Below, in pieces: positions 4,824 to 20,314 of a stretch of 64,000 bases of DNA. The DNA lies in contig FSRV01000001.1 in assembly GCA_900142905.1 (NCBI GenBank), positions 1,426,001 to 1,490,000 on the forward strand, read 5' to 3'. Source of the stretch: Burkholderia sp. GAS332. Lineage in GTDB: Bacteria > Pseudomonadota > Gammaproteobacteria > Burkholderiales > Burkholderiaceae. Positions within the stretch are counted from its first letter, which is position 1. Each line of letters opens with the position of its first letter. A program made the translations under genes and the position numbers. The notes beneath the pieces are model-generated. The model did not search any database and was not told the DNA's origin. It worked only from the letters and a program-made list of their open reading frames with translations.

Positions 4824-6032
4824 TTACAGTCCCAGGATCATTTTGGAAATGATGTTCTTCTGGATTTCGTTGGAGCCGCCGAAGATCGACAGCTTGCGGT
4901 TGTTGAAGTAAAGCGAGGCGGCACTCGCGGCTTCGTCGGGGCCGACTGGTGTGCCCTCGAAGCCATCGTGCAAGGCTTCCTCGATGAACGGCTGCGCATA
5001 CGGCCCCATCGCGCGGCGCGTGAGCGAAGAGATTTCCTGGCGGATCTCGGTGCCGCGAATCTTCAACATCGAACTCTCGGCGCCCGGCACGCCGCCACCG
5101 GCCACCGCCGCGATCACGCGCAGGTTGGTGGTCTTCATGTTCTCCAGATCGATCTCGATACGTGCCATGCGTGCCGCAAACGACGGATCTTCCGCGAGCG
5201 GCCGGCCGTTGCGCTGCTGCTTCGCCGCGATTTTGCGCAACCGGTTGAATGCGGCCACTGAGAAACCGACGCCCGCGATATTGGTGCGCTCATACGTGAG
5301 CAGGTATTTGGCGTAGGTCCAGCCCTTGTTTTCTTCGCCCACAAGGTTCTCAGCCGGTACACGCACATCGGTGAGGAACACTTCGTTGACTTCGTGCTCG
5401 CCATCGAGCGTGATGATCGGCCGCACTTCGACGCCCGGCGTATTCATGTCGATCAGCAGGAAACTGATGCCTTCCTGCTTGCGCACGTCGGTGGCGGTGC
5501 GCACAAGGCAGAAGATCATGTTCGCGTAGTGGCCGAGCGTGGTCCACGTCTTCTGACCGTTGACGATGTAGTGCTCGCCTTGCGCGTCGCTGCCGCGTAC
5601 CGCGGTGGTTTTTACCGCCGCGAGATCGGAACCCGCGCCCGGTTCGGAGTAGCCCTGGCACCACCAGTCCGAGCCGTCGAGAATGCGCGGCAACCAGTGG
5701 TGCTTTTGCGCCTCGTTGCCGTATTTGATCATCACCGGGCCGAGCATGTTGACACCGAACGGCACGACACGTGGTGCCCCCGCCAGTGCGCATTCATTCT
5801 CGAAGATGAATTTCTGCACGGCGTTCCAACCCGGGCCGCCGTATTCTTTTGGCCAATGATTGGCGAGCCAGCCTTGCGCGTTGAGAATCGCGTGCCACTC
5901 AGCCATGTCGTCGCGCGTGAGGCGGCGGCCGCCGTGCACTTTGTCCGCTAGACGTTGCGGGAGCTTGTCACGCAAAAAGCGCTGTACGTCAGTGCGAAAA
6001 GCTTCTTCTTCAGGCGTGAAGTTCAGATCCAT
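4824..6032 (-). CDS. Acyl-CoA dehydrogenase (larger partner)
   Basis: Second acyl-CoA dehydrogenase of the operon, 402 residues from the chosen ATG at 6032 (MDLNFTPEEEAFRTDV). An open frame upstream adds 20 unlikely residues, and a GGAAGAA-like ribosome site precedes 6032. The FAD/acyl-binding region WCQGYSEPGAGSDLAAVKT and the C-terminal end FGGSNEIQKNIISKMILGL are typical of the family. It is 91 bases downstream of the hydratase/dehydrogenase gene and 12 bases upstream of the smaller dehydrogenase, so cotranscription is likely. The proteins together would supply the first three oxidation steps for one acyl-CoA substrate; no thiolase is in the operon. Confidence 0.93.
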   Translation of the reverse strand: MDLNFTPEEEAFRTDVQRFLRDKLPQRLADKVHGGRRLTRDDMAEWHAILNAQGWLANHWPKEYGGPGWNAVQKFIFENECALAGAPRVVPFGVNMLGPVMIKYGNEAQKHHWLPRILDGSDWWCQGYSEPGAGSDLAAVKTTAVRGSDAQGEHYIVNGQKTWTTLGHYANMIFCLVRTATDVRKQEGISFLLIDMNTPGVEVRPIITLDGEHEVNEVFLTDVRVPAENLVGEENKGWTYAKYLLTYERTNIAGVGFSVAAFNRLRKIAAKQQRNGRPLAEDPSFAARMARIEIDLENMKTTNLRVIAAVAGGGVPGAESSMLKIRGTEIRQEISSLTRRAMGPYAQPFIEEALHDGFEGTPVGPDEAASAASLYFNNRKLSIFGGSNEIQKNIISKMILGL

Positions 6033-6123
6033 AATGGGTTCTTCCCTGGATATTGATTCGATCGGCGGACCGGCGGGAGGGCAGGCCCCCACCGGTCAAG
6101 AATGCGCCAAATGATGTGCCGTC

Positions 6124-8244
6124 TCAAGCCGTCTGGTTGAGGCTCGCAAAATCCGCGCCGCGCTCGACCAGATCGATCAGCAGCGGCGACGCTTGCCAGA
6201 ACAGCGGGTCTTCTTTGGCGAATTCGCGGATGTCCGCGAGAACCGTGGCGAGGCCCACTGTATCGGCGTATTTCATCGGGCCGCCGCGATAACGCGGAAA
6301 GCCGTAGCCATAGAGGAAGGTCACGTCGACGTCGAGTGGCCGCAGCGCGATGCCTTCATGCACGACATTGGCGCCTTCGTTGATCATCGCGGCCATGTAG
6401 CGGCGCATGATTTCTTCGTCGGTGAACGTGCGCGGCGTGATGTCGGCGCGTTCGCGCTCGGCGTCGATGATGGCCTCGACCTCGGGGTCGGGCGAACCGC
6501 TGCGCGAACCTTCGGGGTACAGATAAAAACCACGGCCGGTTTTCTGGCCGAACCAGCCGCGTTCGCAAAGACGATCGGCAATTTGCACGTAGCGTGCTTT
6601 GGGGTTACGCGTGGCTGCGCGCCGCTTGCGCGTGGCCCAACCGATGTCGCCGCCCGCCAGATCGACCACCTGGAACGGACCCATCGGGAAGCCGAACGCA
6701 CGCACCGCCGCATCGATCTGATACGGCGACGCACCGTCTTCCATCATCGCGTCCGCCGCGCTGCGATACACCGCGAGCACGCGATTGCCGATGAAGCCGT
6801 CGCACACGCCGGCACGCACCGGCGTCTTGCGCAGTTTCTTCGCGAGTTCGAACGCCGTAGCGACCACGTCGGCGCTGACTTGCTTCGGCACCACCACTTC
6901 CAGCAGCTTCATGATGTTGGCGGGGGAGAAGAAGTGCAGGCCGATTACATCCGCCGGGCGGGAAATGCTGCTCGCAATCGCGTCGATGTCGAGATACGAC
7001 GTGTTGGTGGCGAGCACCGCGCCGGCTTTGCAGACGCGATCGAGTTCGGCGAACACGGCCTTTTTCACCTCCAGGTCTTCGAATACGGCTTCGATCACCA
7101 GATCGGCGTCGGCGAGTGCGTCGTAGGAGGTGCTGCCCTGCCAGCGCGACATCACGTCGGCTTTCTTCTCCGCACTCATGCGGCCTTTGGCGATCAGGCC
7201 GTCGTAGACCTTTTCGATGTGTGCGCGGCCGCGCGCGAGCGACGCGTCGTCGCGTTCGATCATCGTCACCGGCAGGCCTGCATCGAGCACGGCGACGGCG
7301 ATGCCCGCGCCCATCGTGCCGCCGCCCACCACGCCGATCTTATTCAGCGCGCGCGGCTTTGCCTCGCGCGTTTCCGGCGCCTTGAGCACTTCGCGTTCGG
7401 CAAAGAACGCGTGAATCAACCCGGCACGCTGCGGGCTATCGATGCATTCCAGAAACAGTTTGCGTTCGAGCCGCAGGCCGTCTTCGAAAGCGTGTTCGAT
7501 GGCGGCTTCTACGGCATCGACGATTTTGAGCGGCGAGAACAGACCGCGCGATTTCTTCGTCGTTTCGGCGCGTGCGGTGGCGACCGCGGCGAGGCTCGCG
7601 GCGCGGTCGCTTAATGCAGCGGCATCGCGCGTGCGCCGCACGGGAGCGTGAGCGGCCAGCAGTTCGTGCACATAGGCGAGTCCTTCAGCGAGGATGTCGT
7701 CGCTGCTGCCGAGCCGGTCGATGAGGCCGAGCGCGAGCGCTTCTTTCGCACCGGCATGGCGGCCGCTCAGGATCAGGTCGAGGGCAGCCGGCGCGCCGAT
7801 CAGGCGCGGCGTACGCTGCGTGCCGCCTGCGCCCGGCAGCAGGCCGAGTTGCACTTCGGGCAAACCGAGCTTGGCGCCATTCACGGCGAGCCGGTAGTGC
7901 GCCGCGAGCGCCACTTCCAGACCGCCGCCGAGCGCGGCGCCGTGAATGGCGGCCACCACCGGCTTCGCACAGGCTTCGATGCGGTTACACACGTCCGGCA
8001 GCGACGGCGGCACCGGCGGCTTGCCGAACTCGCGGATGTCCGCACCCGCGATGAAGTTGCGCCCGGCGCCGACGATCAGCACGGCCTCGACGGCGCTGTC
8101 GGCATCCGCGGCTTCGATTGCGGCGAGCAAGCCGCGCCGCACGTCGGCGGAGAGGGCGTTGACGGGCGCGTGGTCGATCGTGACCAGCAGGACTTTGCCG
8201 CGCAATTCGCGCGTCACAACGTCGGCGGAAGGGGTGGGGGTCAT
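6124..8244 (-). CDS. Bifunctional enoyl-CoA hydratase / 3-hydroxyacyl-CoA dehydrogenase
   Basis: FadB/FadJ-type multifunctional beta-oxidation enzyme, 706 residues. The N-terminal crotonase domain (about 10-190) has both catalytic glutamates in context (GGGLEVALA and GLPEVQLG) and the oxyanion segment NFIAGADIREF. The NAD-binding Rossmann domain starts with GVVGGGTMGAGIA at about 295, with the catalytic His in HFFSPANIMKLLEVV. Two C-terminal 3-hydroxyacyl-CoA dehydrogenase repeats follow. I took the ATG at 8244, which has AGGAG upstream; the open frame runs on to 8355 across the operator region. It is the first gene of the minus-strand operon and is divergent from a LysR gene. Confidence 0.95.
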   Translation of the reverse strand: MTPTPSADVVTRELRGKVLLVTIDHAPVNALSADVRRGLLAAIEAADADSAVEAVLIVGAGRNFIAGADIREFGKPPVPPSLPDVCNRIEACAKPVVAAIHGAALGGGLEVALAAHYRLAVNGAKLGLPEVQLGLLPGAGGTQRTPRLIGAPAALDLILSGRHAGAKEALALGLIDRLGSSDDILAEGLAYVHELLAAHAPVRRTRDAAALSDRAASLAAVATARAETTKKSRGLFSPLKIVDAVEAAIEHAFEDGLRLERKLFLECIDSPQRAGLIHAFFAEREVLKAPETREAKPRALNKIGVVGGGTMGAGIAVAVLDAGLPVTMIERDDASLARGRAHIEKVYDGLIAKGRMSAEKKADVMSRWQGSTSYDALADADLVIEAVFEDLEVKKAVFAELDRVCKAGAVLATNTSYLDIDAIASSISRPADVIGLHFFSPANIMKLLEVVVPKQVSADVVATAFELAKKLRKTPVRAGVCDGFIGNRVLAVYRSAADAMMEDGASPYQIDAAVRAFGFPMGPFQVVDLAGGDIGWATRKRRAATRNPKARYVQIADRLCERGWFGQKTGRGFYLYPEGSRSGSPDPEVEAIIDAERERADITPRTFTDEEIMRRYMAAMINEGANVVHEGIALRPLDVDVTFLYGYGFPRYRGGPMKYADTVGLATVLADIREFAKEDPLFWQASPLLIDLVERGADFASLNQTA

Positions 8245-8350
8245 CGTGTCGTCTCCTGACTGTTTATTACCGGACCAGATCGGGCCAAATCGGACCGAAT
8301 ACGGCCGATCGAGGCATGCCGGGTCTGGCGAATTCTCCGATTGTCGGTTG

Positions 8351-8407
8351 GTCAAGGTTTATTGACAATTACATAGACCATTGACAGACTGTCAAAATTA
8401 TTTTGAC
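8351..8407. promoter_or_regulatory. Cluster of TTGAC/GTCAA operator half-sites
   Basis: The gap between the beta-oxidation operon and lysR holds five TTGAC or GTCAA half-sites: 8351-8355, 8362-8366, 8381-8385, 8391-8395 and 8403-8407. They form overlapping inverted repeats, including a perfect TTGACAGACTGTCAA (8381-8395) and a perfect 7-3-7 repeat at 8391-8407. This is inferred to be the binding site of the divergent LysR regulator. Confidence 0.65.
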
Positions 8408-8419
8408 AAAGGCCGCATC

Positions 8420-9328
8420 ATGGACGTCAATTCGCTGACCTTGCTGGTCGATATCCTCGATGCGGGCAACCTGAGCGAAGCCGCGCGCCGGCTGAAAATG
8501 AGCCGCGCGAACGTGAGCTACCACCTGAACCAGCTGGAGCGCTCAATCGGCATGCAACTGGTCAGGCGCACCACGCGCCGCGTCGAACCGACCGAAATCG
8601 GTCTCCAGTTATACGAGCATGGCCGCACGATCCAGAACGCGCTGCTGGCCGCGCGCGAATCCGTCACCACCCTCGGGCAGAGCTTGCAGGGTCGGGTGAG
8701 ATTGAGCGTGCCGAGTGGCTACGGGCAACTGGTGATGTCGGATTGGCTGATCGCATTCAAGCGTCTCTATCCGGGCATCGTGCTGGATGTGATGTTCGAG
8801 AATCGCGTCGAGGACCTGATGCGCGACGAGGTCGACATTGCGGTTCGGGTGATGTCCGAGCCGCCGCAGAATCTCGTTGCGCGCGATATGGGGCCGGTGC
8901 GATATGTGGCTTGTGCATCGCCGGGTTTTGCCGAAAGCCGCGGCATGCCGGTGCGGCTCGATGATCTGCGTACGGCGCCGTTGATTACGTCGGCGGTGGT
9001 CGGCAGGCAACTGCGCGTGGCGGCTTATCTGCGCGACGAACGCCACGAAGTGCTGCTGGAGCCGACGATTATTTCCGAGAACTTTCTGTTCTTGCGCCAG
9101 GCGGTGCTGGCTGGCCTGGGTGTCGGCCTGGTGCCCGACTATGTGGTGCAGGATGATCTGCGTCGCGGGGAGGTGGTGACGGCGCTCGACGAATGGCGTT
9201 TAAGCATCTTCGGTACGAACATGTACCTGCTCTATATGCCGAATCGCCATCACACGCGGGCGGCGGCGAGTTTTATCGAATTCATTCTGGAGCAGGCGAG
9301 GGGAAGCGGCAGAGGGGTGGCCGCTTGA
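8420..9328 (+). CDS. LysR-family transcriptional regulator
   Basis: A 302-residue LysR-type regulator. The N-terminal winged helix-turn-helix (about 1-60) contains NLSEAARRLKMSRANVSYHLNQLERSIG, and the C-terminal periplasmic-binding-like effector domain spans about 90-290. The start is the ATG at 8420 (MDVNSLTLLVDIL); the open frame extends upstream into the operator region and was trimmed. It is divergent from the acyl-CoA oxidation operon, which is probably its target. The recognition helix reads NVSYHLNQLE rather than the common AVS..I..LE, a small departure within the family. Confidence 0.93.
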   Translation: MDVNSLTLLVDILDAGNLSEAARRLKMSRANVSYHLNQLERSIGMQLVRRTTRRVEPTEIGLQLYEHGRTIQNALLAARESVTTLGQSLQGRVRLSVPSGYGQLVMSDWLIAFKRLYPGIVLDVMFENRVEDLMRDEVDIAVRVMSEPPQNLVARDMGPVRYVACASPGFAESRGMPVRLDDLRTAPLITSAVVGRQLRVAAYLRDERHEVLLEPTIISENFLFLRQAVLAGLGVGLVPDYVVQDDLRRGEVVTALDEWRLSIFGTNMYLLYMPNRHHTRAAASFIEFILEQARGSGRGVAA

Positions 9329-9470
9329 GCCGCACTGAAGCCGTTTTCCCTCGGCGCGCAGCAGAGCGCAGCGCCAGCGCCAGCACCAACGCCTCACTCC
9401 CGGGTATGCTTAACAAAACGGCGAGATAGCCGTGCGCCTGGCAGCACATCAACCTTCAGGGGAGACGGGG

Positions 9471-9659
9471 ATGAAATGGACAATCGCATGTCTGGCTCTG
9501 CTTGCAATCGCCATTGTCATTGTGTTGGTCTCGCGTCTCCCGAGTGAGGATGCTATTCGCCTCGCCGGCTACGCGGGCACTGCGGCCTTCGCCGCACTGA
9601 TCAGCTTCCTGATTCGCTGGCGTGGAAATCGCGCCCAACGAAACAAACGCACCGGGTGA
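9471..9659 (+). CDS. Small predicted membrane protein
   Basis: A 62-residue predicted protein. Two hydrophobic segments are visible: about 5-24 (IACLALLAIAIVIVLVS) and about 34-52 (AGYAGTAAFAALISFLI), followed by a basic tail (RWRGNRAQRNKRTG), suggesting two membrane spans. The ATG at 9471 is preceded by a GGGGAGACGGGG purine stretch that could serve as a ribosome site. I recognise no family. It stands alone between lysR and the ABC importer, so expression and function are unknown. Confidence 0.5.
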   Translation: MKWTIACLALLAIAIVIVLVSRLPSEDAIRLAGYAGTAAFAALISFLIRWRGNRAQRNKRTG

Positions 9660-9957
9660 ACACACCTACGCCGGGTATTCGCCCGCCCCGCGTGATGGCC
9701 ATGTAGCGCCAGGCTCGCCGCACGCGCGCTAAACCGATCGAACACTTGCTTCCAACTCGTTGCCGAGAGGTCGATGCACGTCCCGAGTTTCGTCAACGGC
9801 ACGACTCTCCACCCGTCCCGCGGCGCCATTCTACGCGTAAACCCGATTAGGGAATTTGCATAAAAGTAAAATATTGACGTTAAATTAACAACGGGCTACC
9901 TTTACTTCCAATGCGACGGAACACCCGGGGCGCAGCAATCGCGATGAGAGAGTTGCC
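9660..9957. other. Intergenic region upstream of the ABC importer
   Basis: No convincing gene in 298 bases. The right half is AT-rich and carries the promoter annotated separately. A perfect GTTAAATTAAC palindrome at 9879-9889 sits inside the promoter spacer. Confidence 0.6.
9874..9902 (+). promoter_or_regulatory. Predicted sigma-70 promoter of the ABC/BacA-fold operon
   Basis: TTGACG at 9874-9879, a 17-base spacer, then TACCTT at 9897-9902. The spacer contains the perfect palindrome GTTAAATTAAC (9879-9889), which would suit a repressor. The first gene starts at 9958. Confidence 0.5.
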
Positions 9958-10755
9958 ATGTCACACAGCCTGTTTCAACGTCTTCGAGGATTGGTCACCT
10001 GCGCCTTGGCGGCGACAGCATTAGTGATGTCGGCTCCCGCTTTTTCCGACGGCGACACGCTGAGGGTTGCAACGGAGGGCACCTATCCTCCGTGGAGCTT
10101 TAAAGATGCCTCCGGCCAGCTACAGGGTTTCGATGTAGACATTGCGAATGCCCTTTGCGCGCAGATGAAGGTGAAATGCCAGATCGTTGCGCAGGCGTGG
10201 GACGGCATCATTCCTGGTCTTCAGGCCAATCGATATGACGCAATCGTTGCGTCGATGTCGACAACGCCCGCGCGCCGCAAACAGGTGCTGTTCACCAACA
10301 AGTACAAGGACACGACGTCCAGCTTTATCGCGGCAAAAGACAGCGGGATAAAGGACGTGTCGCCTGCGGGTCTGAAAGGGAAACGCATCGGCGTTCAACG
10401 CGGCGCCTCCCAGCACCAGTGGCTTGTCGCTAACGGTTACGACAAGACAGGTTCACTCGTGTTGTATGACGATACCCGTCAGCCGGAATTGGACCTCGTT
10501 GCAGGTCGTGTCGATCTCATCATCGGCAACAAGGCGACGTTCTACTCCGACTTCTTCAAACGGCCTGACTCGAAGGACTTCGCCTTTGTCGGGCCTGAAT
10601 TCAAAGGCGGCGTACTCGGAGACGGAAACGCAATTGCAGTTCGTCTCGACGACGCCGCGCTCTGCAATCGTATTAACGCTGCGTTGGCCGCAATCATGGC
10701 GAACGGCACCTACGACCAGATCAGAAAGAAGTATTTCCCTTTCTCTCTGATGTAA
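9958..10755 (+). CDS. Amino-acid-type ABC transporter substrate-binding protein
   Basis: Periplasmic solute-binding protein (265 residues) of the polar amino acid family (SBP_bac_3). A signal peptide is visible at about 1-30 (basic start, hydrophobic LVTCALAATALVMSAPAFS). The mature domain begins LRVATEGTYPPWSFKDASGQLQGFDVDI, the classic start of lysine/arginine/ornithine/histidine- and opine-binding proteins, and has the conserved QAWDGIIPGLQANRYDAIVASM segment. It is the first gene of an operon with two permeases, an ATPase and two BacA-fold proteins. The ligand cannot be told; an amino-acid-like or opine-like compound is likely. Confidence 0.93.
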   Translation: MSHSLFQRLRGLVTCALAATALVMSAPAFSDGDTLRVATEGTYPPWSFKDASGQLQGFDVDIANALCAQMKVKCQIVAQAWDGIIPGLQANRYDAIVASMSTTPARRKQVLFTNKYKDTTSSFIAAKDSGIKDVSPAGLKGKRIGVQRGASQHQWLVANGYDKTGSLVLYDDTRQPELDLVAGRVDLIIGNKATFYSDFFKRPDSKDFAFVGPEFKGGVLGDGNAIAVRLDDAALCNRINAALAAIMANGTYDQIRKKYFPFSLM

Positions 10756-10768
10756 TGCGGGAGCCAGC

Positions 10769-11446
10769 ATGGTCGATTTCACTCTGAATGGTTATGGCGG
10801 ACTCATTCTGTTCGGGGCCCTGACGACTCTGCTGGTCGCACTCGCGGCCACAGCTATCGGCTCGGTCATCGGGATTCTGATGGCGGCTGCCAAGTTGTCG
10901 CCCATGCGGATTCTCAGGCAGCTCGCCGGGGCGTACACGACCACGATACGAGGTGTTCCGGACCTGCTTGTCATCTTCCTTGTGTACTACGGCGGCAGCG
11001 CAAGCCTTTCTCATGTCTTGGGCCGGCCCATTGAAATCAATGCGTTCGGTGCGGGTGCTGTGTCGCTGGGGCTGGTGTTTGGCGCCTATGCGACGGAAAT
11101 CTTCCGGGGTGCGATTCTGGAAGTTCCGCGCGGGCAGTTTGAAGCCGCCGCAGCGCTGGGGTTGACGGGTACGAGGAGCTTTGTCCACGTCATCGCACCA
11201 CAAGCGTGGCGCCTCGCAGTCCCTGCTTTCGGGAATCAACTGACCGTACTGCTGAAAGAAACTGCGCTTGTTTCGCTGGTTGGTCTGGAAGACTTGATGC
11301 GACGAACAGGCTTCGCCGTTGAGGCGACAAATCGCCCATTTTTCTTTTACCTTGTTGCTGGCGTACTGTACTTTGTCCTCAGCTTCGCCATGACAAACGT
11401 TTTTAGTACGGTTCGCCGCAAGACGTCGACCGCATTGGCGAGGTGA
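10769..11446 (+). CDS. ABC transporter permease, HisQ-like
   Basis: Inner-membrane permease (225 residues) of the HisM/HisQ family, with about five hydrophobic helices. The ATPase-coupling EAA loop reads EAAAALGLTGTRSFVHVIAPQAWRLAVPAFGNQ at about 130-160. It begins 13 bases after the binding protein and ends 3 bases before the second permease, so the importer is one transcription unit. HisQ-type permeases work as heterodimers with HisM-type partners. Confidence 0.93.
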   Translation: MVDFTLNGYGGLILFGALTTLLVALAATAIGSVIGILMAAAKLSPMRILRQLAGAYTTTIRGVPDLLVIFLVYYGGSASLSHVLGRPIEINAFGAGAVSLGLVFGAYATEIFRGAILEVPRGQFEAAAALGLTGTRSFVHVIAPQAWRLAVPAFGNQLTVLLKETALVSLVGLEDLMRRTGFAVEATNRPFFFYLVAGVLYFVLSFAMTNVFSTVRRKTSTALAR

Positions 11447-11449
11447 GGC

Positions 11450-12217
11450 ATGTTTGACTTCTCATTGCTCATTTCGAGTCTTCCGCGTCTCTTTGCTGCG
11501 TTGCCTGTCACGCTTGAGCTGTTTGTCGCCATCGTGGTCGTGGGTCTCATTGTGGGTGTGCCCACAGCGCTCATGGGATTGAGTTCGTCGAAGATTCTGA
11601 GCGGTAGCGTCAAGTTCTACATCGGCGCATTTCGCGGCACGCCGGCGCTAGTGCAATTGTTCTTTCTCTACTACGGATTCGGGCAGTTTGCTTTTATTCG
11701 ACACTCCGTGGTCTGGCCGCTCCTGCGTGACCCATTCACCTGTGCCGTCATTGCCCTGGGGCTGAATTCGGGCGCTTACACGGCGCGCATTCTGATGGGG
11801 GCGCTGTCTGCCGTGCCCAAAGGCATTGTGGAAGCTGCCGAGGCACTCGGGCTGAGCCGAGCCTCGATACTCAGTCGCGTTAAAGCACCGCTTGCCATTC
11901 GTATTGCCATTCCCGCATACGCCAACGAAACGATTCTGAACCTGAAGGCGACGTCGCTTGCGTCGACGGTGACCATCATGGAGTTGACGGGAACGTCGAA
12001 GCTGCTGGTTAGTGAGACCTATGCGCCCTATGAGATTTTCGTCGGAGCTGGCTTGATTTATCTCGCGATGACGTTCTTCCTGTCGCATGCGTTCCGGATC
12101 CTCGAGCGGAACATCGCACGCAGAACAGGCAAAGACATCAACATCGTCAACGCTGGAAAACCTAAGCAACCCGCGATGCCGAAGTCTTCAGATTCTGGCG
12201 ACACCCACATTGCCTAG
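11450..12217 (+). CDS. ABC transporter permease, HisM-like
   Basis: Second inner-membrane permease (255 residues). It has several hydrophobic helices and an EAA loop (VEAAEALGLSRASILSRVKAPLAIRIAIPAYANE) at about 125-160. The C-terminal tail of about 25 residues is polar and Lys/Pro-rich, longer than typical. It is tightly linked to the preceding permease. A 60-base gap with a perfect inverted repeat separates it from the first BacA-fold gene. Confidence 0.92.
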   Translation: MFDFSLLISSLPRLFAALPVTLELFVAIVVVGLIVGVPTALMGLSSSKILSGSVKFYIGAFRGTPALVQLFFLYYGFGQFAFIRHSVVWPLLRDPFTCAVIALGLNSGAYTARILMGALSAVPKGIVEAAEALGLSRASILSRVKAPLAIRIAIPAYANETILNLKATSLASTVTIMELTGTSKLLVSETYAPYEIFVGAGLIYLAMTFFLSHAFRILERNIARRTGKDINIVNAGKPKQPAMPKSSDSGDTHIA

Positions 12218-12243
12218 TCCTCTCGCAGCGCATTTTAATAGGT

Positions 12244-12263
12244 GGACTCATGTTCCTGAGTCC
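12244..12263. repeat. Perfect 7-6-7 inverted repeat before the first BacA-fold gene
   Basis: GGACTCA (12244-12250) and TGAGTCC (12257-12263) enclose TGTTCC and end 14 bases before the start codon at 12278. As RNA it would fold close to the translation start; as DNA it could be an operator. There is no T-run, so it is not a standard terminator. Confidence 0.55.
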
Positions 12264-12277
12264 CTGACGCAAAGTTA

Positions 12278-12898
12278 ATGGAGAAACGCAAATTGCTTCG
12301 GTTTCTGACACTTGGACCCAGTGGTAGCAATCACGAGTTTGTGACTGCTCGATACATTCAACATCACGGTCTGGAAGGACAAGCATCGATGGCTCTGGTG
12401 TTGAGCTTTGACGAGGCAGCGCGCATGGTGATTGACGGCGAAGCCGACTATATCGTTCAGGTTGCAGTGCATCCTTCGACGGCCGACATTGTCGCGAAGT
12501 ACCGCAAACAACTGTTCGTCATCGATGCATTCGTCTCTTCCAGCAAAGACATGGCGGTTGTGACCCGTGTTGATATCAACACACCTCGAACGCTCGCACT
12601 TCAGCCGGCCACGCGCGACTATGTCAATACGGAGGGACTGACACTCATTCCGGAGACATCGACAGCATCGGTCGCGGATGGGCTCCTCTCGGGCAAATAC
12701 GAAAGTGGTCTGACGTACTCGTCCCTTGCAACCGAGAACCCCACCCGGTTCAGAATCGACGAGCGAATCGGTACCGTCGACGACCCATGGATTGTCTATG
12801 GTCGTGAGCGATTGTCCGACGGCCAGGTTGTAGCCTGGAAGGAGAGCCCGGCTGCTCGAGCATTCCACGCCCAGACACTGACGCGGCTTGATAGCTGA
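12278..12898 (+). CDS. Prephenate dehydratase/BacA-fold protein, copy 1
   Basis: A 206-residue cytosolic protein without a signal peptide. The N-terminal FLTLGPSGSNHEF (motif residues 12-20) resembles the substrate loop of prephenate dehydratase and of the prephenate decarboxylase BacA. Residues 154-158 read NPTRF, matching the TRF motif that contributes the catalytic Thr in prephenate dehydratase (here T156). The end has WIVYGRER, reminiscent of BacA. It is much shorter than PheA and has no ACT or chorismate mutase domain. A paralogue lies at 13726. The gene sits inside the ABC importer operon, so it probably acts on or senses the imported compound; the function is unknown. Confidence 0.7.
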   Translation: MEKRKLLRFLTLGPSGSNHEFVTARYIQHHGLEGQASMALVLSFDEAARMVIDGEADYIVQVAVHPSTADIVAKYRKQLFVIDAFVSSSKDMAVVTRVDINTPRTLALQPATRDYVNTEGLTLIPETSTASVADGLLSGKYESGLTYSSLATENPTRFRIDERIGTVDDPWIVYGRERLSDGQVVAWKESPAARAFHAQTLTRLDS

Positions 12899-12926
12899 GC
12901 CGCACGAAATGCACAGGATCTTCGCT

Positions 12927-13682
12927 ATGAATACGGTACCCGACAACGAATTCGTGATATCTATCAAGGAACTCTCAAAGAGTTTCGGCGAGTTCAATGT
13001 ACTCAACTCTATTTCGCTGCATGTCCGGCGAGGTGAAAAGATTGTTCTGTGCGGACCGTCCGGCTCCGGAAAGTCGACACTGATTCGCTGCATGAACCGA
13101 CTTGAGAAGCATGATTCGGGGGATGTGCACGTCGACGGAATCGAGCTCACCGACGATGTGAAACACGTGCGCATGGTCCGTGCGGATGTCGGTATGGTGT
13201 TTCAGCATTTCAATCTGTTCCCGCACATGACGGTGCTGGAAAACTGCACATTGGCTCCGATGCACGTTCGCGGTCTGAAGCGGAAGGACGCCGAACCACG
13301 GGCTCTTGAAATGCTTGAACGTGTTCGCGTCGCGAGTCATGCCACGAAATACCCTGCGCAGCTTTCCGGTGGTCAGCAGCAGCGGGTCGCTATCGCAAGA
13401 GCGCTTTGCATGTCGCCCACCATCATGCTTCTCGACGAACCGACGTCAGCGCTTGACCCGGAGATGGTCAGGGAGGTGCTCGACACGCTTACGCTGCTTG
13501 CGCAAGACGGCATGACGATGCTTTGCGTCACCCACGAAATGGGATTTGCAAGGGCGGTGGCCGACCGCATTCTGTTCATGGACCAAGGCGAAATTGTGGA
13601 AGACAGCGAGCCTGCTGATTTCTTTGACGCGCCGAAGACTGAACGAGCGAGGCGCTTCCTCAGTCAGATGATTCAAAAATGA
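12927..13682 (+). CDS. Amino-acid ABC transporter ATP-binding protein
   Basis: ATPase subunit (251 residues) of the polar amino acid uptake family, GlnQ/HisP type. Walker A is GPSGSGKS at 43-50, the Q-loop segment is VFQHFNLFPHMTVLENC, the signature LSGGQ is at 146-150, and Walker B LLDEPTSALDPE follows, then the H-loop His in CVTHEMGF. The start was taken at the ATG at 12927; an in-frame extension to 12888 would overlap the upstream gene. It completes the importer and lies between the two BacA-fold genes, an unusual interleaving. Confidence 0.94.
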   Translation: MNTVPDNEFVISIKELSKSFGEFNVLNSISLHVRRGEKIVLCGPSGSGKSTLIRCMNRLEKHDSGDVHVDGIELTDDVKHVRMVRADVGMVFQHFNLFPHMTVLENCTLAPMHVRGLKRKDAEPRALEMLERVRVASHATKYPAQLSGGQQQRVAIARALCMSPTIMLLDEPTSALDPEMVREVLDTLTLLAQDGMTMLCVTHEMGFARAVADRILFMDQGEIVEDSEPADFFDAPKTERARRFLSQMIQK

Positions 13683-13725
13683 ATGCGTCATATTGAACAT
13701 GCACGCGAGTTTTCGGGAGTAAAGC

Positions 13726-14331
13726 ATGGCCACAATCAGGTTTGGCACCCTCGGTCCATCCGGGACGAACCACGAGTACGTGACTCGTCGTTACATTGAA
13801 TTCCACGGGCTAGAGGCGGCGGTCAAGCTCTTTGATAATTTCGACGATGCCATGGCTGCGTTTGACGCGGACGAAATTGACTATCTCATCCAGTGCGCGG
13901 TTCATCCAGATACCCCGCGCGTGATGGGCAGTAACTTCCGCGAGCGGTTCGTTGTCGACACCTTCATCTCGCCAAGTCAGACATTGGCGATTCTCACGCA
14001 TAAAGATGTAAGCAAGCCGGAAACAATCTCACTTGTTTCCCCTGCAACCGATGAATACGCGGACCTCAGTTCGTATTCGAAGCTAATTCCCGCGGTCTCA
14101 ATTCCCGTGGCCTTCGAACGACTGATGAAGGGAGAATGCGATTCCGCGCTTGTATATCGATATTATTTTGATGCGCAGCCGGAGAAGTTGCGGGTGGACG
14201 CAACGATCGGTTCACCCGATGACGCCTGGATTGTGTACGGCCGGGAGCGAGTTGGGGCGGGAGGCATTGTCGCCAGTCGAGACAGCGTGGCGGCAAAGCA
14301 ATTCGCAGAGCTGCAGCGGTCGCAACGATAA
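13726..14331 (+). CDS. Prephenate dehydratase/BacA-fold protein, copy 2
   Basis: A 201-residue paralogue of the gene at 12278. Shared blocks are TLGPSGTNHEYVT (motif at 9-17), RYIEFHGLE, DYLIQCAVHP, the SPAT segment, LIPAVS, and DDAWIVYGRER near the end. In contrast to copy 1, the region aligned to NPTRF reads QPEKL, so the dehydratase-type Thr is missing, as in BacA-like decarboxylases. A good GGGAG site precedes the ATG. It is 43 bases after the ATPase and is the last plus-strand gene of the operon. It could be an enzyme or a cytosolic ligand-binding subunit; I cannot decide. Confidence 0.7.
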   Translation: MATIRFGTLGPSGTNHEYVTRRYIEFHGLEAAVKLFDNFDDAMAAFDADEIDYLIQCAVHPDTPRVMGSNFRERFVVDTFISPSQTLAILTHKDVSKPETISLVSPATDEYADLSSYSKLIPAVSIPVAFERLMKGECDSALVYRYYFDAQPEKLRVDATIGSPDDAWIVYGRERVGAGGIVASRDSVAAKQFAELQRSQR

Positions 14332-14385
14332 ATAGATACGTGCGATAGCTGCTGGTCGAGGTCAGTGCAAGAGGGGGGCTAATTT

Positions 14386-15039
14386 CTAGCTGTATTCCCG
14401 GATGTTGAAGAATACGGCGAGAAACCTGACCGGCACGCTCTCGATGTCTTCCGGACCATGCGCCGCATTCGGATCGAACAGCAAGCTATCACCGGGTTTC
14501 AGGTCGTAGAGCCGATTGGCGTATCGGTATTTCATCTTGCCTTCAAGTACGTGAAGGAACTGGATTCCAGTTGTCTGGTGGGTTGACCACGGTTGGGACT
14601 TTTCGTCGAGCGTAACGATATACGGCTCCACGGAAAGGTTCCCTGACAATACGTGGCCAATGAGTCGATAGATGTGGCCGTACGAGGAACCTTCCCGGTC
14701 GACAGTCACGCCTTGTCCAGCGGGTACGAACGAGCAGTCGTGGCGTTCACTCTGGTCGACGAAAAAACGCGATACGGGTTTGCCCAACGCATTGGCAAGC
14801 CGCGTGAGCGTTTCTATCGACGGGGTCGCCGTTCCTTTTTCGATTCTTGAGAGCATCGAATGGGAAATGCCGGCCATTTTCGCGAGCGTGCCCGAAGCGA
14901 TTCCTGCTGACGTTCGAAAGGCATGAATCTGTGCGGACAAAGCACGGGACACTTTCTCTACCGCGGGGTCAGGCTGCTTCTCTGCTACCTCGATGTCCGG
15001 AGATTCTCCAGCGGGTGGCTGGTTCTGAGATTTTGGCAT
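14386..15039 (-). CDS. XRE-family regulator with cupin sensor domain
   Basis: A 217-residue transcription factor. The Cro/C1-type helix-turn-helix lies at about 38-95 (IHAFRTSAGIASGTLAKMAGISHSMLSRIEKG), and the C-terminal cupin_2 barrel at about 140-215 contains GIQFLHVLEGKMKYRY and LKPGDSLLFDPNAAHGPE. This architecture is common for regulators of amino acid and polyamine catabolism. I took the ATG at 15039 with GAAGG upstream rather than the TTG at 15066. It is convergent with the BacA-fold operon and divergent from the GNAT gene, so it is the likely regulator of the locus. Confidence 0.92.
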   Translation of the reverse strand: MPKSQNQPPAGESPDIEVAEKQPDPAVEKVSRALSAQIHAFRTSAGIASGTLAKMAGISHSMLSRIEKGTATPSIETLTRLANALGKPVSRFFVDQSERHDCSFVPAGQGVTVDREGSSYGHIYRLIGHVLSGNLSVEPYIVTLDEKSQPWSTHQTTGIQFLHVLEGKMKYRYANRLYDLKPGDSLLFDPNAAHGPEDIESVPVRFLAVFFNIREYS

Positions 15040-15043
15040 GGTG

Positions 15044-15056
15044 CCTTCAGTGAAGG
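15044..15056. promoter_or_regulatory. Palindrome overlapping the XRE-cupin ribosome site
   Basis: CCTTCAGTGAAGG is a perfect 6-1-6 palindrome five bases upstream of the minus-strand start at 15039 and contains its GAAGG ribosome site. It may be an autoregulatory operator or may merely be a short RNA fold. Confidence 0.35.
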
Positions 15057-15164
15057 AACTGTTCAAAGTGACTACGTGTTGCCATTATATGAGGCATTGC
15101 TGCGGATGAGTGCCAGCTCAACAGCTTTTTGGCAGCGTCGCGCGAGATAGTAAAGGGGATCGCC

Positions 15165-15614
15165 ATGACGCATATTCGGCCTGTTGCACCGACCGATGCA
15201 CGTTCCGTTGCACACCTTGTGAATGAGCTTCTGACGGAGCTTCACAATGGCAAACTTGAACCCGCAGACCGAGTGTCTATCGCCGAAGCCGTTCTGAACC
15301 AAACGAGTCGCAGCTTCGGGTATGTGGCGCTTGAAGGTGAGAGTCCGGTAGGTGTACTTCTCATGACAGAAGGCATGGCGATATACGCGGGAGGGGCCTT
15401 CGGACAGATTACGGAGCTATACGTCCGCCCGGAATATCGGTCGGGTGGGGTGGCCGCAGCGCTGGTCCGCGAGGCCACGAAGTTCGGCAAGGAACGCGGA
15501 TGGAAACGGCTCGATGTTGGCGCGCCTGACCAGCCACGTTGGGCCCGGACGCTTGCGTTCTATCTGTCCGCGGGTTTTGTAGAGGTTGGACCACGGTTGC
15601 GTCTTGATTTGTGA
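15165..15614 (+). CDS. GNAT-family N-acetyltransferase
   Basis: A 149-residue acetyltransferase-like protein. The acetyl-CoA-binding motif A appears as ITELYVRPEYRSGGVAAALVREATKFGKERGWKRL at about 83-115, the R/Q-x-x-G-x-A/G variant here being RSGGVAA. The C-terminal strand is followed by FYLSAGFVEVGPRLRL. The ATG at 15165 is preceded by AAAGGGG; upstream residues in the open frame were discarded. It is divergent from the cupin regulator and followed by a Rid-family gene. A role in modifying the imported compound is inferred from context only. Confidence 0.88.
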   Translation: MTHIRPVAPTDARSVAHLVNELLTELHNGKLEPADRVSIAEAVLNQTSRSFGYVALEGESPVGVLLMTEGMAIYAGGAFGQITELYVRPEYRSGGVAAALVREATKFGKERGWKRLDVGAPDQPRWARTLAFYLSAGFVEVGPRLRLDL

Positions 15615-15668
15615 TGCTGTCCGTCAGGCTAATTGGCAGCATAAAAACACGAACTCACGGAGATTAAG

Positions 15669-16085
15669 ATGAGCAAGATTCAGCGCCTGCGATTGCCCGA
15701 AAACGATGAAACGTTTGGCGGCAACAAGATTTTCGACCTCTTCCAGTATTCGCCCGCTGTGTCGGCGAACGGCCTGGCCTTCATTGCAGGGCAGGTTGGG
15801 ATACGAGCGGACGGAACCATTCCTGTGTCGGCGGAAGAGCAGATCGATCTGGTGTTCAAGCGTGCCGAAGTCGTTCTCCGGAACCTCGGGCTCGACTTCA
15901 CGGACCTTGTAGAACTGGTTTCGTACCATGTGGACGTAGCGTCACAACTCAGTGTTTTCCGGGCCATCAAGGAGCGTTACATCCATTCCGACTTTCCTGC
16001 GTGGACGATTCTTGGTGTGGCATCGTTGGCGCGCCCCGAGTTGTTAATCGAAATCAAGATGGTCGCGGCGCTGCGGAAGGTGTGA
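15669..16085 (+). CDS. Rid-family (YjgF/UK114) protein lacking the RidA arginine
   Basis: A 138-residue trimeric-fold Rid protein. The fold motifs FIAGQVGIRADGT and AEEQIDLVFKRAEVVLRNLGLDFTDLVELVSYHVD are clear. In E. coli RidA the catalytic Arg105 lies in VARLP; here the aligned segment is VASLARPELLIEI, giving Ser at that place. It is therefore probably not a 2-aminoacrylate deaminase of the RidA type but one of the other Rid subfamilies. It is 54 bases after the GNAT gene, probably cotranscribed. Rid paralogues commonly sit in amino-compound catabolic loci. Confidence 0.88.
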   Translation: MSKIQRLRLPENDETFGGNKIFDLFQYSPAVSANGLAFIAGQVGIRADGTIPVSAEEQIDLVFKRAEVVLRNLGLDFTDLVELVSYHVDVASQLSVFRAIKERYIHSDFPAWTILGVASLARPELLIEIKMVAALRKV

Positions 16086-16257: not shown

Positions 16258-17163
16258 ATGAATGATGCCGTCGACATAAGATTTCTACTCACCATTCGCG
16301 AAGCCGGCAGCCTTGCGGGCGCAGCTCGAAAGTTGGGCGTCACGCCGTCGGCGGTAACGAAGCGGTTGCAGCAGATTGAGACGAAGCTTGACGTCCATTT
16401 GCTGGACAGGTCGACGAGACAATTGCGCTTCACGGAAGAGGGCGAACTGCTCTGTTCCAAAGGCGCGGAGCTTCTTCGGGACTTTGATTCGTTGCTTGCC
16501 GAGCTGGGTAGGCGAAGAGGGCAATTGGTCGGTGGATTGAAAGTCAATGCACCGCTTGGTTTCGGGCGTCGATACGTCGCTCGCATCGCATCTGCGTTCA
16601 AGGATGCCCACCCGGATGTGGACGTCTCCTTGACATTGTCCGACCGCCCGCTCATTGAAGAATATGACCGCTATGACATTGTCGTTCATATCGGCGAGTT
16701 GGGTCCTTCGAACCTTGTCAGGTACGTGATTGCGCCTAACGCTCGCTACGTCTGCGCGTCCCCCGCTTTCCTGAAGAGATACGGTTCCCCCGCGAACCCG
16801 GAAGACCTCGCGAATGTTCCCTGCATCGCACTTCGTCAAAACAACGAGGACGTGACGTTGTGGCATTTCTCGAAGGGGCGTACTTCACGCGGCGTCCGCG
16901 TTTCCTCTGGCCTGAGTTCGAACGATGGCGATGTGATTCACCAGTGGGCTCGAGAGGGGCGAGGGGTGATGCTTCGGTCGGAATGGGATGTGGCGGAAGA
17001 ATTACAAAATGGCTCACTGATCCGGCTGCTGCCAGGCTGGAAGCTGCCGGATGCTGACGTTATCGCCCTTGTTCACCAAAGAACGGGTATGCCGGCACGA
17101 ATCAAGGCCTTTCTGCAGCATCTGCAACGAGAGTTTCGCCCGCGGCCGCCTTGGCGCCCCTGA
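16258..17163 (+). CDS. LysR-family transcriptional regulator
   Basis: A 301-residue LysR regulator. The helix-turn-helix at about 1-60 (AGSLAGAARKLGVTPSAVTKRLQQIETKL) is followed by the substrate-binding-like domain. The closest ribosome-site-like sequence, GAGGAG, is about 18 bases upstream of the ATG, farther than normal, so translation may be weak. It follows the Rid gene by 172 bases and precedes the dehalogenase-type hydrolase by 123 bases on the same strand; which neighbour it controls is unclear. The effector is unknown. Confidence 0.92.
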   Translation: MNDAVDIRFLLTIREAGSLAGAARKLGVTPSAVTKRLQQIETKLDVHLLDRSTRQLRFTEEGELLCSKGAELLRDFDSLLAELGRRRGQLVGGLKVNAPLGFGRRYVARIASAFKDAHPDVDVSLTLSDRPLIEEYDRYDIVVHIGELGPSNLVRYVIAPNARYVCASPAFLKRYGSPANPEDLANVPCIALRQNNEDVTLWHFSKGRTSRGVRVSSGLSSNDGDVIHQWAREGRGVMLRSEWDVAEELQNGSLIRLLPGWKLPDADVIALVHQRTGMPARIKAFLQHLQREFRPRPPWRP

Positions 17164-17286
17164 CTCCGTGTCGAACGGTGAAAACCGTCCATCGATTCGT
17201 TCCTGAAAGTTAATTTCTGATTGCCTCACTGGAAACCCTATTGCTGCAGGCTTCAACTAGACTGCATTCAGATACGGGAGGCAACG

Positions 17287-18165
17287 ATGTTCACAGATTT
17301 CACCGACGCGTCGACCCACGTCGACGGCATCCAGATCCACGCGATCCGCGGCGGCAGTGGCCCGGCTTTACTGCTGCTGCACGGCCATCCACAGACCCAT
17401 GCGATCTGGCACAAAGTCGCGCCCACGCTGGCACGGCACTTCACGGTCATTGCCGCGGATCTGCGTGGCTACGGCGACAGCGGCAAACCGCAAGGCGCGC
17501 CCGACCACAGCACCTATTCGAAACGCCGCATGGCCGCGGATCAGGTGTCGTTGATGCGCGCCCAAGGCATCACGCAATTTGCCGTTGTCGGTCACGATCG
17601 CGGTGGGCGCGTTGCCGCTCGCATGGCGCTCGATCATCCGCAAGCGGTGACGAAGCTGGTCACACTGGACGTCGCACCGACACTCGCCATGTACGAGAAA
17701 ACTTCGTTCGAGTTCGCGCGCGCTTACTGGCATTGGTTCTTCCTCGTGCGTCCCGCGCCGTTTCCCGAGACGCTGATCCGTGCGGACCCCGATCTCTATC
17801 TGAAGCAGACGATCGGCGCACGCAGCGCCGGGCTCGCGCCGTTCACCGCTGCCGCCTACGCCGAGTATTTGCGTTGTCTGTCAGACCCGGCCACCGCACA
17901 CGGCATCTGCGAGGACTACCGCGCGAGCATCACGATCGACCTCGATCACGACCGTGCCTCGCTCGCCGAAGGGCAGAAGATCGCGTGCGATTTCCTCGCG
18001 TTGTGGGGCGCGCATGGCGTGATCGAACAATGCTTCGAGCCGCTCGCCGAATGGCGGCAGTGGTCGGCGCACGTGAGCGGCGAGGCATTGCCGTGTGGCC
18101 ATTACATTCCCGAGGAAGCGCCCGAGTTGTTGCTCGACCGCGCCTTGCCGTTCCTGCAGTCCTAG
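17287..18165 (+). CDS. Alpha/beta hydrolase of the fluoroacetate/haloacetate dehalogenase type
   Basis: A 292-residue alpha/beta hydrolase resembling Delftia haloacetate dehalogenase H-1. All residues of fluoroacetate dehalogenases can be placed: nucleophile Asp104 with Arg105 and Arg108 for the carboxylate (HDRGGR), Asp128, the halide pocket His149-Trp150 (YWHWF) and Tyr211 (EDYRAS), and His272 (CGHYI). Asp as nucleophile distinguishes it from Ser esterases. A GGGAGG site precedes the ATG. It is 17 bases upstream of a leuC paralogue, so the natural substrate may be a larger 2-halo acid or another carboxylic acid. The fold and residues are seen; defluorination is inferred. Confidence 0.85.
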   Translation: MFTDFTDASTHVDGIQIHAIRGGSGPALLLLHGHPQTHAIWHKVAPTLARHFTVIAADLRGYGDSGKPQGAPDHSTYSKRRMAADQVSLMRAQGITQFAVVGHDRGGRVAARMALDHPQAVTKLVTLDVAPTLAMYEKTSFEFARAYWHWFFLVRPAPFPETLIRADPDLYLKQTIGARSAGLAPFTAAAYAEYLRCLSDPATAHGICEDYRASITIDLDHDRASLAEGQKIACDFLALWGAHGVIEQCFEPLAEWRQWSAHVSGEALPCGHYIPEEAPELLLDRALPFLQS

Positions 18166-18182
18166 CCGCCGGTCGACCCATC

Positions 18183-19601
18183 ATGTCAAAACGAACCCTT
18201 TACCAGAAGCTCGTCGATTCGCACGTCGTCACGCGCATCGACGCACAAAACGTGCTGCTGTACGTCGATCTGCATCTGATGAACGAATACACCAGCCCGC
18301 AGGCGTTCAGCGCACTCGCGGCCAAAGCGCGGCCGGTGCGTCGTCCGCGGCAGCAACTGGCGGTGGTCAGCCACATCATTCCAACGCATGCGGAATCGCC
18401 GCGCGTGATTCGCGATGCCGCGTCGCTGTTGCAGGCCAATAATCTCGCGCGCAACTGCGAACAGGCGGGTATCGAACTGTACGCGGCGAACGATCCGCTG
18501 CAAGGCATCGAACATATCGTCGCGCCCGAACGCGGCCTGATTCGCCCGGGGATGGTCGTGCTGTGCGGCGATAGTCACACCACCACGTACGGTGCGCTCG
18601 GCGCATTGGGTTTCGGCATCGGCACCTCGGAGGTCGAGCACGTGCTTGCCACGCAAACGCTGGTCTATCGCGTCGCGCAAACCATGCGCATCACGATCGA
18701 CGGGGCGTTGCCGTATGGCACATCCTCAAAGGATGTGATCCTGTGGATCATCAGCCGCATCGGTGCACAGGGTGCGCGTGGTTATGCGGTGGAGTTCGCA
18801 GGCTCGACGATTGCGTCGCTGTCCGCTGAAGCACGCATGACCTTATGCAACATGACCGTCGAAGCCGGCGCGCGAGCCGCGCTGATCGCACCCGACGCGA
18901 CCACGTTCGATTACGTCCGCGCGCACGTCACATCTCTGGACGATGCCGCGTGGGCTGCTGCCATGAACGACTGGCGCGAACTGAAATCCGACGCCGGCGC
19001 GGCCTTCGATGTCGAGCATCACTTCGATGCGCACGATATCGCGCCGTTCGTCACATGGGGCACGAGCCCCGATCAGGCGATTGCAGTCGATCAGCGCATT
19101 CCCAGCGCCGCTGCGCAAAAGACACCGGAAGCCGTCGCGGCGCTCCGACGCGCGCTCGACTACATCGGGCTCGATGCGGACCAGCCGATTGCGGGCACAC
19201 CGATCGACCGCGTGTTCATCGGCTCGTGCACCAACGGGCGTATCGAGGATTTGCGCATCGTCGCCGCTATCGTGCGCGGGCGCCACGTTGCGCAAGGCGT
19301 GCGCGCGATGGTCGTGCCGGGCTCGGGCACTGTGCGCCGCGAGGCTGAGGCTGAGGGCATCGCCGCGATACTGCGCGATGCCGGTTTCGAATGGCGCGAG
19401 CCGGGCTGTTCAATGTGTCTCGCGATGAACGACGATTTTCTCGCGGTGGGTGAGCGCTGCGCATCCACGACCAACCGTAACTTCGAAGGACGGCAGGGGC
19501 GCGGCGGCCGCACGCACCTGATGAGCCCCGCGATGGCCGCCGCCGCTGCACTCACCGGGCGCATCACCGACGTCCGCACGCTGGAGACACAATCATGCTA
19601 A
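18183..19601 (+). CDS. 3-isopropylmalate dehydratase large subunit-like protein (LeuC paralogue)
   Basis: Aconitase-family large subunit, 472 residues. It should hold a [4Fe-4S] cluster: the three ligand cysteines occur in GSCTNGRIEDLR and GCSMCLAMN. The active-site region CGDSHTTTYGALGALGFGIGTSEVEHV is intact. Near the N-terminus SHIIPTHAESP replaces the usual DHNVPT of biosynthetic LeuC, suggesting a different substrate. The start is the ATG at 18183; the open frame continues upstream through the hydrolase gene only by chance. It overlaps leuD by 7 bases. With the dehalogenase-type hydrolase and DctA it looks catabolic (a 2- or 3-hydroxydiacid isomerase), not leucine synthesis. Confidence 0.9.
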   Translation: MSKRTLYQKLVDSHVVTRIDAQNVLLYVDLHLMNEYTSPQAFSALAAKARPVRRPRQQLAVVSHIIPTHAESPRVIRDAASLLQANNLARNCEQAGIELYAANDPLQGIEHIVAPERGLIRPGMVVLCGDSHTTTYGALGALGFGIGTSEVEHVLATQTLVYRVAQTMRITIDGALPYGTSSKDVILWIISRIGAQGARGYAVEFAGSTIASLSAEARMTLCNMTVEAGARAALIAPDATTFDYVRAHVTSLDDAAWAAAMNDWRELKSDAGAAFDVEHHFDAHDIAPFVTWGTSPDQAIAVDQRIPSAAAQKTPEAVAALRRALDYIGLDADQPIAGTPIDRVFIGSCTNGRIEDLRIVAAIVRGRHVAQGVRAMVVPGSGTVRREAEAEGIAAILRDAGFEWREPGCSMCLAMNDDFLAVGERCASTTNRNFEGRQGRGGRTHLMSPAMAAAAALTGRITDVRTLETQSC

Positions 19602-20212
19602 CGAGACTCACTGACATCGACGGAATTGCCGCGCCATTGCCGATTGAAAACCTCGATACCGATCAGATCATGCCGAAGCAGTTTCTTCGGATCATCGACA
19701 AGGCCGGACTGAGTGAGGGCTTGCTGTACGACTTGCGTGTCGACGCAGAAGGCGAGCCGCGCCCTGATTGCGTGCTGAATCAGGCGGCGTATCGCGGCGC
19801 GCGCATCCTGATCGGCGGCTCGAATTTCGGCTGCGGTTCGAGTCGTGAGCATGCCGTGTGGGGGCTTCAGCAATTCGGTTTCGAAGCGGTGATCGCGCCG
19901 AGCTTCGCCGAGATTTTCTATTCGAACGCGATGAATAACCGTTTGCTGCTGGTGCAACTGGAGCGCGAAGCAGTCGACGCCTTACTGCATGACGCTGCGA
20001 CACAACCGGCTGCGCCGCTGCATATCGACATCGAACAGCAAACGGTGACGACCGCCGGCGGTCGCGTGTTCACGTTCCCGCTCGGCGCACGTCACAAACA
20101 GATGGTGATTGAAGGCATGGACACCATCGACCTCACGCTCGCTTCACTGCACGACATTGAAGCGTTCGAGCGGGCCCATCTCGCACGGCATAGCTGGGCC
20201 GCCGTGCTGTAA
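19595..20212 (+). CDS. 3-isopropylmalate dehydratase small subunit-like protein (LeuD paralogue)
   Basis: The swivelling small subunit (205 residues) partnering the LeuC-like protein. It has the typical start GIAAPLPIENLDTDQIMPKQFLR and the substrate-specificity loop GSNFGCGSSREHAVWGLQQFGF. The start overlaps the leuC stop, implying translational coupling. The length is normal for proteobacterial LeuD. There is no leuB or leuA in the cluster, and a dicarboxylate transporter follows, which supports a specialised isomerase. Confidence 0.92.
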   Translation: MLTRLTDIDGIAAPLPIENLDTDQIMPKQFLRIIDKAGLSEGLLYDLRVDAEGEPRPDCVLNQAAYRGARILIGGSNFGCGSSREHAVWGLQQFGFEAVIAPSFAEIFYSNAMNNRLLLVQLEREAVDALLHDAATQPAAPLHIDIEQQTVTTAGGRVFTFPLGARHKQMVIEGMDTIDLTLASLHDIEAFERAHLARHSWAAVL

Positions 20213-20314
20213 ATCCCCTGGCGGTGCGTGTGCCGCCATTCAACCGAAACGCGCGTGACGATTTCCCCGCCAGAAGGGAAGGGACGCGCTTTGCCTTTAA
20301 AAAATGGAGGAGAC

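Follow-up and report, generated by a model that had tools for sequence, protein, structure and literature searches.

Gene organization of the locus

The window analysed here is a 64,000-nucleotide stretch of contig FSRV01000001.1 (positions 1,426,001 to 1,490,000) from Burkholderia sp. GAS332, whose genome comprises 10.4 Mb in three contigs; the nearest named relatives of the window's proteins belong to Paraburkholderia. The window contains an operon (9958-14331) in which the genes of an ATP-binding cassette (ABC) importer are interleaved with two genes for proteins resembling BacA, the prephenate decarboxylase of bacilysin synthesis, and sharing the prephenate dehydratase (PDT) fold. The order of the genes is substrate-binding protein (SBP), permease, permease, BacA-like copy 1, ATPase and BacA-like copy 2, followed by a convergent XRE-cupin gene and by a GNAT and a Rid gene. 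This nine-gene layout had been proposed in an earlier note made from the DNA letters alone, and all nine open reading frames (ORFs) were found at the positions it gave (Table 1). The Pfam families matched above their cut-offs are SBP_bac_3, BPD_transp_1 (twice), ABC_tran, HTH_3 together with Cupin_2, GNAT and Ribonuc_L-PSP. Signal peptides were called by eye throughout.

Table 1. Position, strand and basis of assignment of the features of the locus
Feature	Position	Strand	Basis and remarks
Promoter-like element (TTGACG ... TACCTT), 5' of the SBP gene	9873..9902	+	Exact string located
Periplasmic substrate-binding protein (SBP_bac_3)	9958..10755	+	Pfam/NCBIfam; signal peptide by eye; nearest PDB sequences LAO-, nopaline- and octopine-binding
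Permease 1 (HisQ/ArtQ-like)	10769..11446	+	TIGR01726 above cut-off
Permease 2 (ArtM/HisM-like)	11450..12217	+	TIGR01726 above cut-off
BacA-like/PDT-fold protein copy 1, Burkholderiales-type clade, 206 aa	12278..12898	+	Profile, tree
ABC ATPase (GlnQ/HisP-like)	12888..13682	+	Pfam, NCBIfam; start may be ATG 12909 or 12927
BacA-like/PDT-fold protein copy 2, clade mostly alphaproteobacterial, 201 aa	13726..14331	+	Structure model, profile, tree
XRE-cupin regulator, probable regulator of the operon	14386..15066	-	HTH_3 + Cupin_2
GNAT acetyltransferase, accessory	15129..15614	+	Pfam GNAT
Rid/YjgF family protein, probably outside the conserved unit	15669..16085	+	Ribonuc_L-PSP

Fold and kinship of the BacA-like proteins

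The two BacA-like copies share 42% identity across 192 aligned columns. In a Pfam search each reaches 15.4 bits against PF00800, compared to a curated cut-off of 25.2; neither matches any NCBIfam model at E 0.1, and phmmer against the PDB sequences, at E up to 1, returned nothing for copy 1 and one chance-like match for copy 2. The PDT fold is nevertheless found in copy 2, from a structure model with a predicted local distance difference test (pLDDT) score of 95.8 and from its structural matches, among which dehydratases and BacA rank above binding proteins. Comparison by hhalign of the BacA family with the BacA-like family, which includes both copies, gives 98.9% (E 1.7e-17) over 181 columns that span the whole domain. 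Background scores against the BacA-like family are 62.7% (E 7.2e-5, 73 columns) for an alignment of SBPs and 49.1% (E 1.7e-4) for thirteen canonical dehydratases; since the SBP alignment scores as well as the canonical dehydratases, only the BacA match stands clear of the background. The PDT/BacA fold claimed in the earlier note is thus upheld, by the model of copy 2 for the fold and by the family profile for the kinship, and the two proteins are not unrelated to PDT; of the profile searches it had suggested, that with PF00800 reached only sub-threshold scores and that with the BacA family succeeded.

An Asp residue occurs in all 131 BacA-like rows where the BacA family has Met (33/33 rows), just before a conserved Trp, and N15, H16, H60, Y111, D166 and W168 are identical in 131/131 rows. 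The catalytic Thr of the TRF motif of PF00800 is similarly replaced by Asp in 131/131 rows, the equivalence of this Thr depending on a register set by eye. The patterns used to excise the canonical dehydratases (13 of 30 fetched loci passed) and a set of extra dehydratases include the TR motif, which makes the Thr counts of both sets circular. As judged from these alignments, the BacA-like family forms a BacA branch whose active-site residue differs, and because Asp replaces the Met of BacA, neither known activity can be assumed for its members. No signal peptide is apparent and the BacA-like proteins are predicted to be cytosolic.

Distribution and linkage to importer genes

The BacA-like family is rare, occurring in 4/398 Pseudomonadota genomes at E 1e-10 and in 4/150 genomes of the taxonomic family of the window (the other three at E ~1e-13), the genome of the window being counted in both cases. 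Neighbourhoods were examined in the best 80 of 90 confirmed loci (numbered with the prefix L), linkage being counted from hidden Markov model matches, one in each of the 80 loci, because an over-extended ATPase ORF hid the BacA-like gene in nine of them. A permease of the polar amino acid importer class lies on the same strand within 4.5 kb of the BacA-like gene in 37/80 loci, referred to as importer-linked, and in 32 of the 59 loci flanked by 3 kb or more on each side. The conservation of the link to ABC genes, which the earlier note had left to a neighbourhood survey, is therefore found in 37 loci.

Depending on the lineage, the operon is organized as SBP, BacA-like, permease, permease and ATPase in Alphaproteobacteria, where the adjacent ATPase is missing in some loci, or as SBP, permease, permease, BacA-like and ATPase in Burkholderiales. 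Importer-linked loci almost always contain a single BacA-like copy, both copies being present in the window and in L003, L004, L005 and L006. In a tree of 89 BacA-like rows and 7 BacA rows, copy 1 is placed in a 28-row set (96/95) alongside rows from Burkholderiaceae and of Variovorax type; the set of copy 2 (100/95) has 22 rows, 15 of them alphaproteobacterial. A recent tandem duplication is ruled out by the tree, which places the copies in separate clades. The picture of ABC genes interrupted by two paralogues accordingly describes the window, which has one protein from each clade, but not the usual operon, which has only one.

Importer class and binding pocket

The SBP_bac_3 protein, two HEQRo-type permeases and the ATPase assign the importer to the polar amino acid ABC class (Pfam, NCBIfam). 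The earlier proposal of an amino-acid-type importer thus agrees with the family assignments; the ligand could be cyclohexadienyl or opine-like. The pocket residues E11, Y14, W17, W52, A69, R77, Q117 and N161 (LAO numbering) are found in the SBP of the window and in 33/33 operon SBPs, and this set of eight is absent from all 19 SBP paralogues of the same genome. According to the accessible parts of two structural reports (PMC5740067, PMC4192606), most of these residues hold the arginine moiety in OccJ and NocT. With N161 in the position of the usual Asp, a free alpha-amine loses its normal partner, as would suit a keto acid or N-substituted amino acid. It may be speculated that a 4-amino cyclohexadienyl acid would suit both halves of the pocket.

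Aromatic-pathway genes near the importer

A tblastn screen of the locus DNA with four proteins detected at least one of them in 22/37 importer-linked loci: a chorismate mutase with a probable signal peptide in 12, an extra-type prephenate dehydratase in 7, an indolepyruvate-type ferredoxin oxidoreductase in 4 and PaaX in 2. Among the other 43 loci, the mutase occurs in L077 and the dehydratase in L081; the PheA of L076 is of the ordinary kind. L053, on whose copy the family was named, and L063 (same cluster) also have a PabAB-like gene, which may be an ordinary folate gene and was left uncounted.

Thirteen whole genomes, covering 13 of the 17 loci of the Variovorax/Pseudacidovorax/Ideonella clade, were surveyed for the mutase, which lies inside the locus in nine, as a fragment with a stop in the locus in one, outside the locus in one (G225) and is missing from two. 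A second survey covered PF00800 in 15 genomes, for six of which the extra dehydratase was known beforehand. More than one copy occurs in 8/15, and all eight have the extra copy in the neighbourhood of the importer, either in the locus (6), ~10 kb away (Jiella) or ~29 kb away (Bradyrhizobium, where an oxidoreductase gene precedes it by 0.8 kb); in Rhizobium, a third copy lies elsewhere in the genome. Of 10 alphaproteobacterial genomes, three have the oxidoreductase inside the locus; this enzyme gives 22 matches above the cut-off across the ten and, being multi-copy, constitutes weaker evidence than the mutase.

The fullest set is that of Jiella flava, which comprises the extra dehydratase, an aromatic amino acid transaminase (above cut-off), XRE, 2-oxoacid dehydrogenase-type E1/E2/E3, Lrp, SBP, the BacA-like protein, permeases, ATPase, PaaX, and 3-oxoadipyl-CoA-type thiolase and PaaA clusters. 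The dehydrogenase, thiolase and PaaA families were named from Rhizobium copies of the same clusters, and the E1 and E2 matches, which lie below equivalog cut-offs, imply no particular 2-oxoacid. In lineages with such neighbours, e.g., Jiella, the gene context ties the importer to predicted arylpyruvate formation and phenylacetyl-CoA catabolism.

The L081 locus of Variovorax sp. SG517 groups, at 6618-10639, an amidase, a Bug/TctC-like binding protein, a prephenate dehydratase that seems to bear a signal peptide and the BacA-like gene, in a set devoid of an ABC importer.

Proposed function and alternatives

The interpretation we favour, with a probability of roughly 0.4, is that the operon serves to import a prephenate-like compound and to convert it, with aromatisation, into a feed for phenylacetate-type catabolism. 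The importer would bring in a cyclohexadienyl acid resembling prephenate, or a closely related amino compound, on which the BacA-like proteins would act in the cytosol. The invariant Asp that stands where BacA has Met could act as a general acid, with aromatisation of the ring and loss of CO2 yielding an arylpyruvate, which would then enter a phenylacetyl-CoA-type catabolism, as suggested by the relatives; in the genome of the window, the genes for it would lie elsewhere. Since one enzyme stems from each of two clades, the copies may accept different ranges of substrates or catalyse consecutive steps.

This proposal could be extended to a feeding system for extracellular chorismate-branch acids, the first of its genetic kind, in which the chorismate mutase exported in relatives (or, in L081, the exported dehydratase) would work outside the cell, its product being imported and converted by the Asp-type BacA branch to arylpyruvate for the phenylacetate pathway. 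So complete a scheme is doubtful.

Several observations weigh against the uptake of a prephenate-like compound. None of the four aromatic neighbours was detected by tblastn in the window or in L003-L006; in the genome of the window, the only PF00800 gene above or near the cut-off is PheA-like, a mutase-like match lies ~370 kb from the locus, and six oxidoreductases above cut-off are all located elsewhere. Where an ordinary-looking extra dehydratase exists, the BacA-like protein must have another job. The BacA-like gene has other contexts in 43/80 loci, and related genomes share a history, so that locus counts are not independent events. In the pocket, the eight residues match OccJ at 8/8 and NocT at 6/8 positions (not W17 and N161), by alignment with the accessible parts of the published descriptions, and the acceptor-rich far end would apparently fit a cation better than a hydroxyl. 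Finally, in L029 the ATPase gene is followed by one for an AstC/ArgD-type transaminase, and L033 and L037 have genes of the same cluster; such an enzyme fits an ornithine or arginine compound.

These pocket residues, confined within the genome to the operon SBP, and this transaminase are also what recommends the main rival, an importer for arginine or an N-substituted (opine-like) arginine or ornithine, whose BacA-like proteins would no longer carry out prephenate chemistry but act on, or release, an arginine-derived compound. Nopaline- and octopine-binding proteins are among the nearest PDB sequences, and the lineage of the window is the one devoid of aromatic neighbours. However, the pocket match is a reading of aligned residues, and the octopine-binding signature of OccJ, given in the accessible text of PMC5740067 as E30-Y33-W71-S91-R96-N111-Q159-T163-A164-N202, is only partly kept: 7/10 positions agree in the SBP of the window, N111, T163 and A164 being replaced by S, S and Q, and residue 72 varies between S, G, A and T. 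Moreover, no recurring arginine-catabolic set occurs among the neighbours examined, whereas aromatic genes do recur. We consider this rival unlikely.

It is quite improbable that the BacA-like proteins are non-catalytic cytosolic sensors or binders of the imported compound, by virtue of the type II binding-protein architecture common to PDT, as six residues invariant in every row exceed the needs of a binder of varied ligands and the nearest family is enzymatic, dehydratases and BacA outranking binding proteins in the structural comparison. An amide hydrolase activity, as reported for the PDT-fold protein GqqA, which would cleave an imported N-acyl compound to free its amino acid, is very improbable, GqqA being a full-length dehydratase with an ACT domain that complements a pheA mutant and whose Z is not set apart from other dehydratases in structural comparison.

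A bacilysin-like biosynthetic role was put aside, the recurrent partner being an importer; bacB-bacG were not searched by name.

Regulator, accessory genes and other contexts

Regulation of the operon is probably exerted by the XRE-cupin protein. An XRE-type gene lies within 6.5 kb in 26/37 importer-linked loci, compared to 9/37 for GNAT, all of them Burkholderiaceae, and 1/37 for Rid; the GNAT and Rid genes, which the earlier note had counted as parts of the locus, thus fall outside its conserved core. A stretch similar to the promoter-like element of Table 1 was recognized by eye 5' of the SBP gene in L003, L005, L029, L033, L036, L037 and L039. A search for an operator shared by the SBP promoter and the XRE-GNAT gap revealed no common 14-mer (up to 2 mismatches) in seven of the eight sets having both regions, and one chance-like 14-mer pair in L036.

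On either side of the locus, the window encodes, at 3681-8355 (minus strand), acyl-CoA dehydrogenases resembling the subunits of pimeloyl-CoA dehydrogenase, together with a FadJ/FadB-like protein, none of which reaches its equivalog cut-off. At 16258-21655 (plus strand) it encodes a LysR protein resembling TtdR (below cut-off) along with a LeuC-type dehydratase and a DctA-type carrier that both exceed their cut-offs; these genes perhaps form a separate dicarboxylate-catabolic unit.

In Halomonas and kin (L064, L065, L069, L071, L073, L075-L079, L082), genes for TRAP DctM and a TAXI binding protein lie beside the BacA-like gene in convergent orientation. In alphaproteobacterial metagenome-assembled genomes (L024-L026, L030-L032, L040) the BacA-like gene follows a Znu-like ZnuA-ATPase-ABC-3 permease set. 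In SAR116 and other marine Alphaproteobacteria (L041, L047, L049, L050, L068, L070 and L074, around position 10000; L049: 1242-6000) it is the first of several co-directional genes, the others encoding a glycosyltransferase 2, a 290-residue family for which Pfam gave no match when L041 was tested, an SDR and a radical SAM protein of the SPL-like type; some loci add a PhyH or DAO-GCV_T protein. This set looks like an unknown biosynthetic operon.

Comparison with known systems

Literature searches, in which subscription journals were thinly covered, found no paper on prephenate uptake and none combining four of the five terms describing the gene combination; on chorismate uptake and exported enzymes they listed five papers, among them PMC10520331. 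The feeding system, if true, would assign a nutritional role outside the cytoplasm to the exported chorismate mutases of these soil bacteria; the importer and BacA-like protein lying by a chorismate mutase (Variovorax-type) or by phenylacetate genes (Rhizobium, Jiella), such a nutritional role is directly testable.

Among known proteins, BacA is the closest, as the best profile match and as a single PDT domain of ~200 residues without ACT, the TLGPxGT start and W-x-V-F/Y-G end being common to both families. The BacA-like family differs from it by the Asp in place of the invariant Met before Trp, by N15-H16 instead of Ser-Ser, and by the location of its genes in importer operons. Prephenate dehydratases (PF00800) have the same fold, but the BacA-like proteins score below the Pfam cut-off, lack an ACT domain and have Asp for the TRF Thr, in the by-eye register. 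The octopine and nopaline importers (OccJ, NocT) resemble that of the window in class and, as far as their accessible descriptions go, in the arginine-moiety residues of the SBP, and differ by the opine half of the signature, only partial here, and by the BacA-like genes inside the operon. Lastly, exported chorismate mutase-cyclohexadienyl dehydratase fusions, for which the accessible part of PMC10520331 proposes a signalling role, are likewise exported shikimate-pathway enzymes encoded near transporter and SBP genes; unlike these fusions, the mutase of the relatives considered here has a gene of its own, next to those of an importer accompanied by a predicted cytosolic BacA-like protein.

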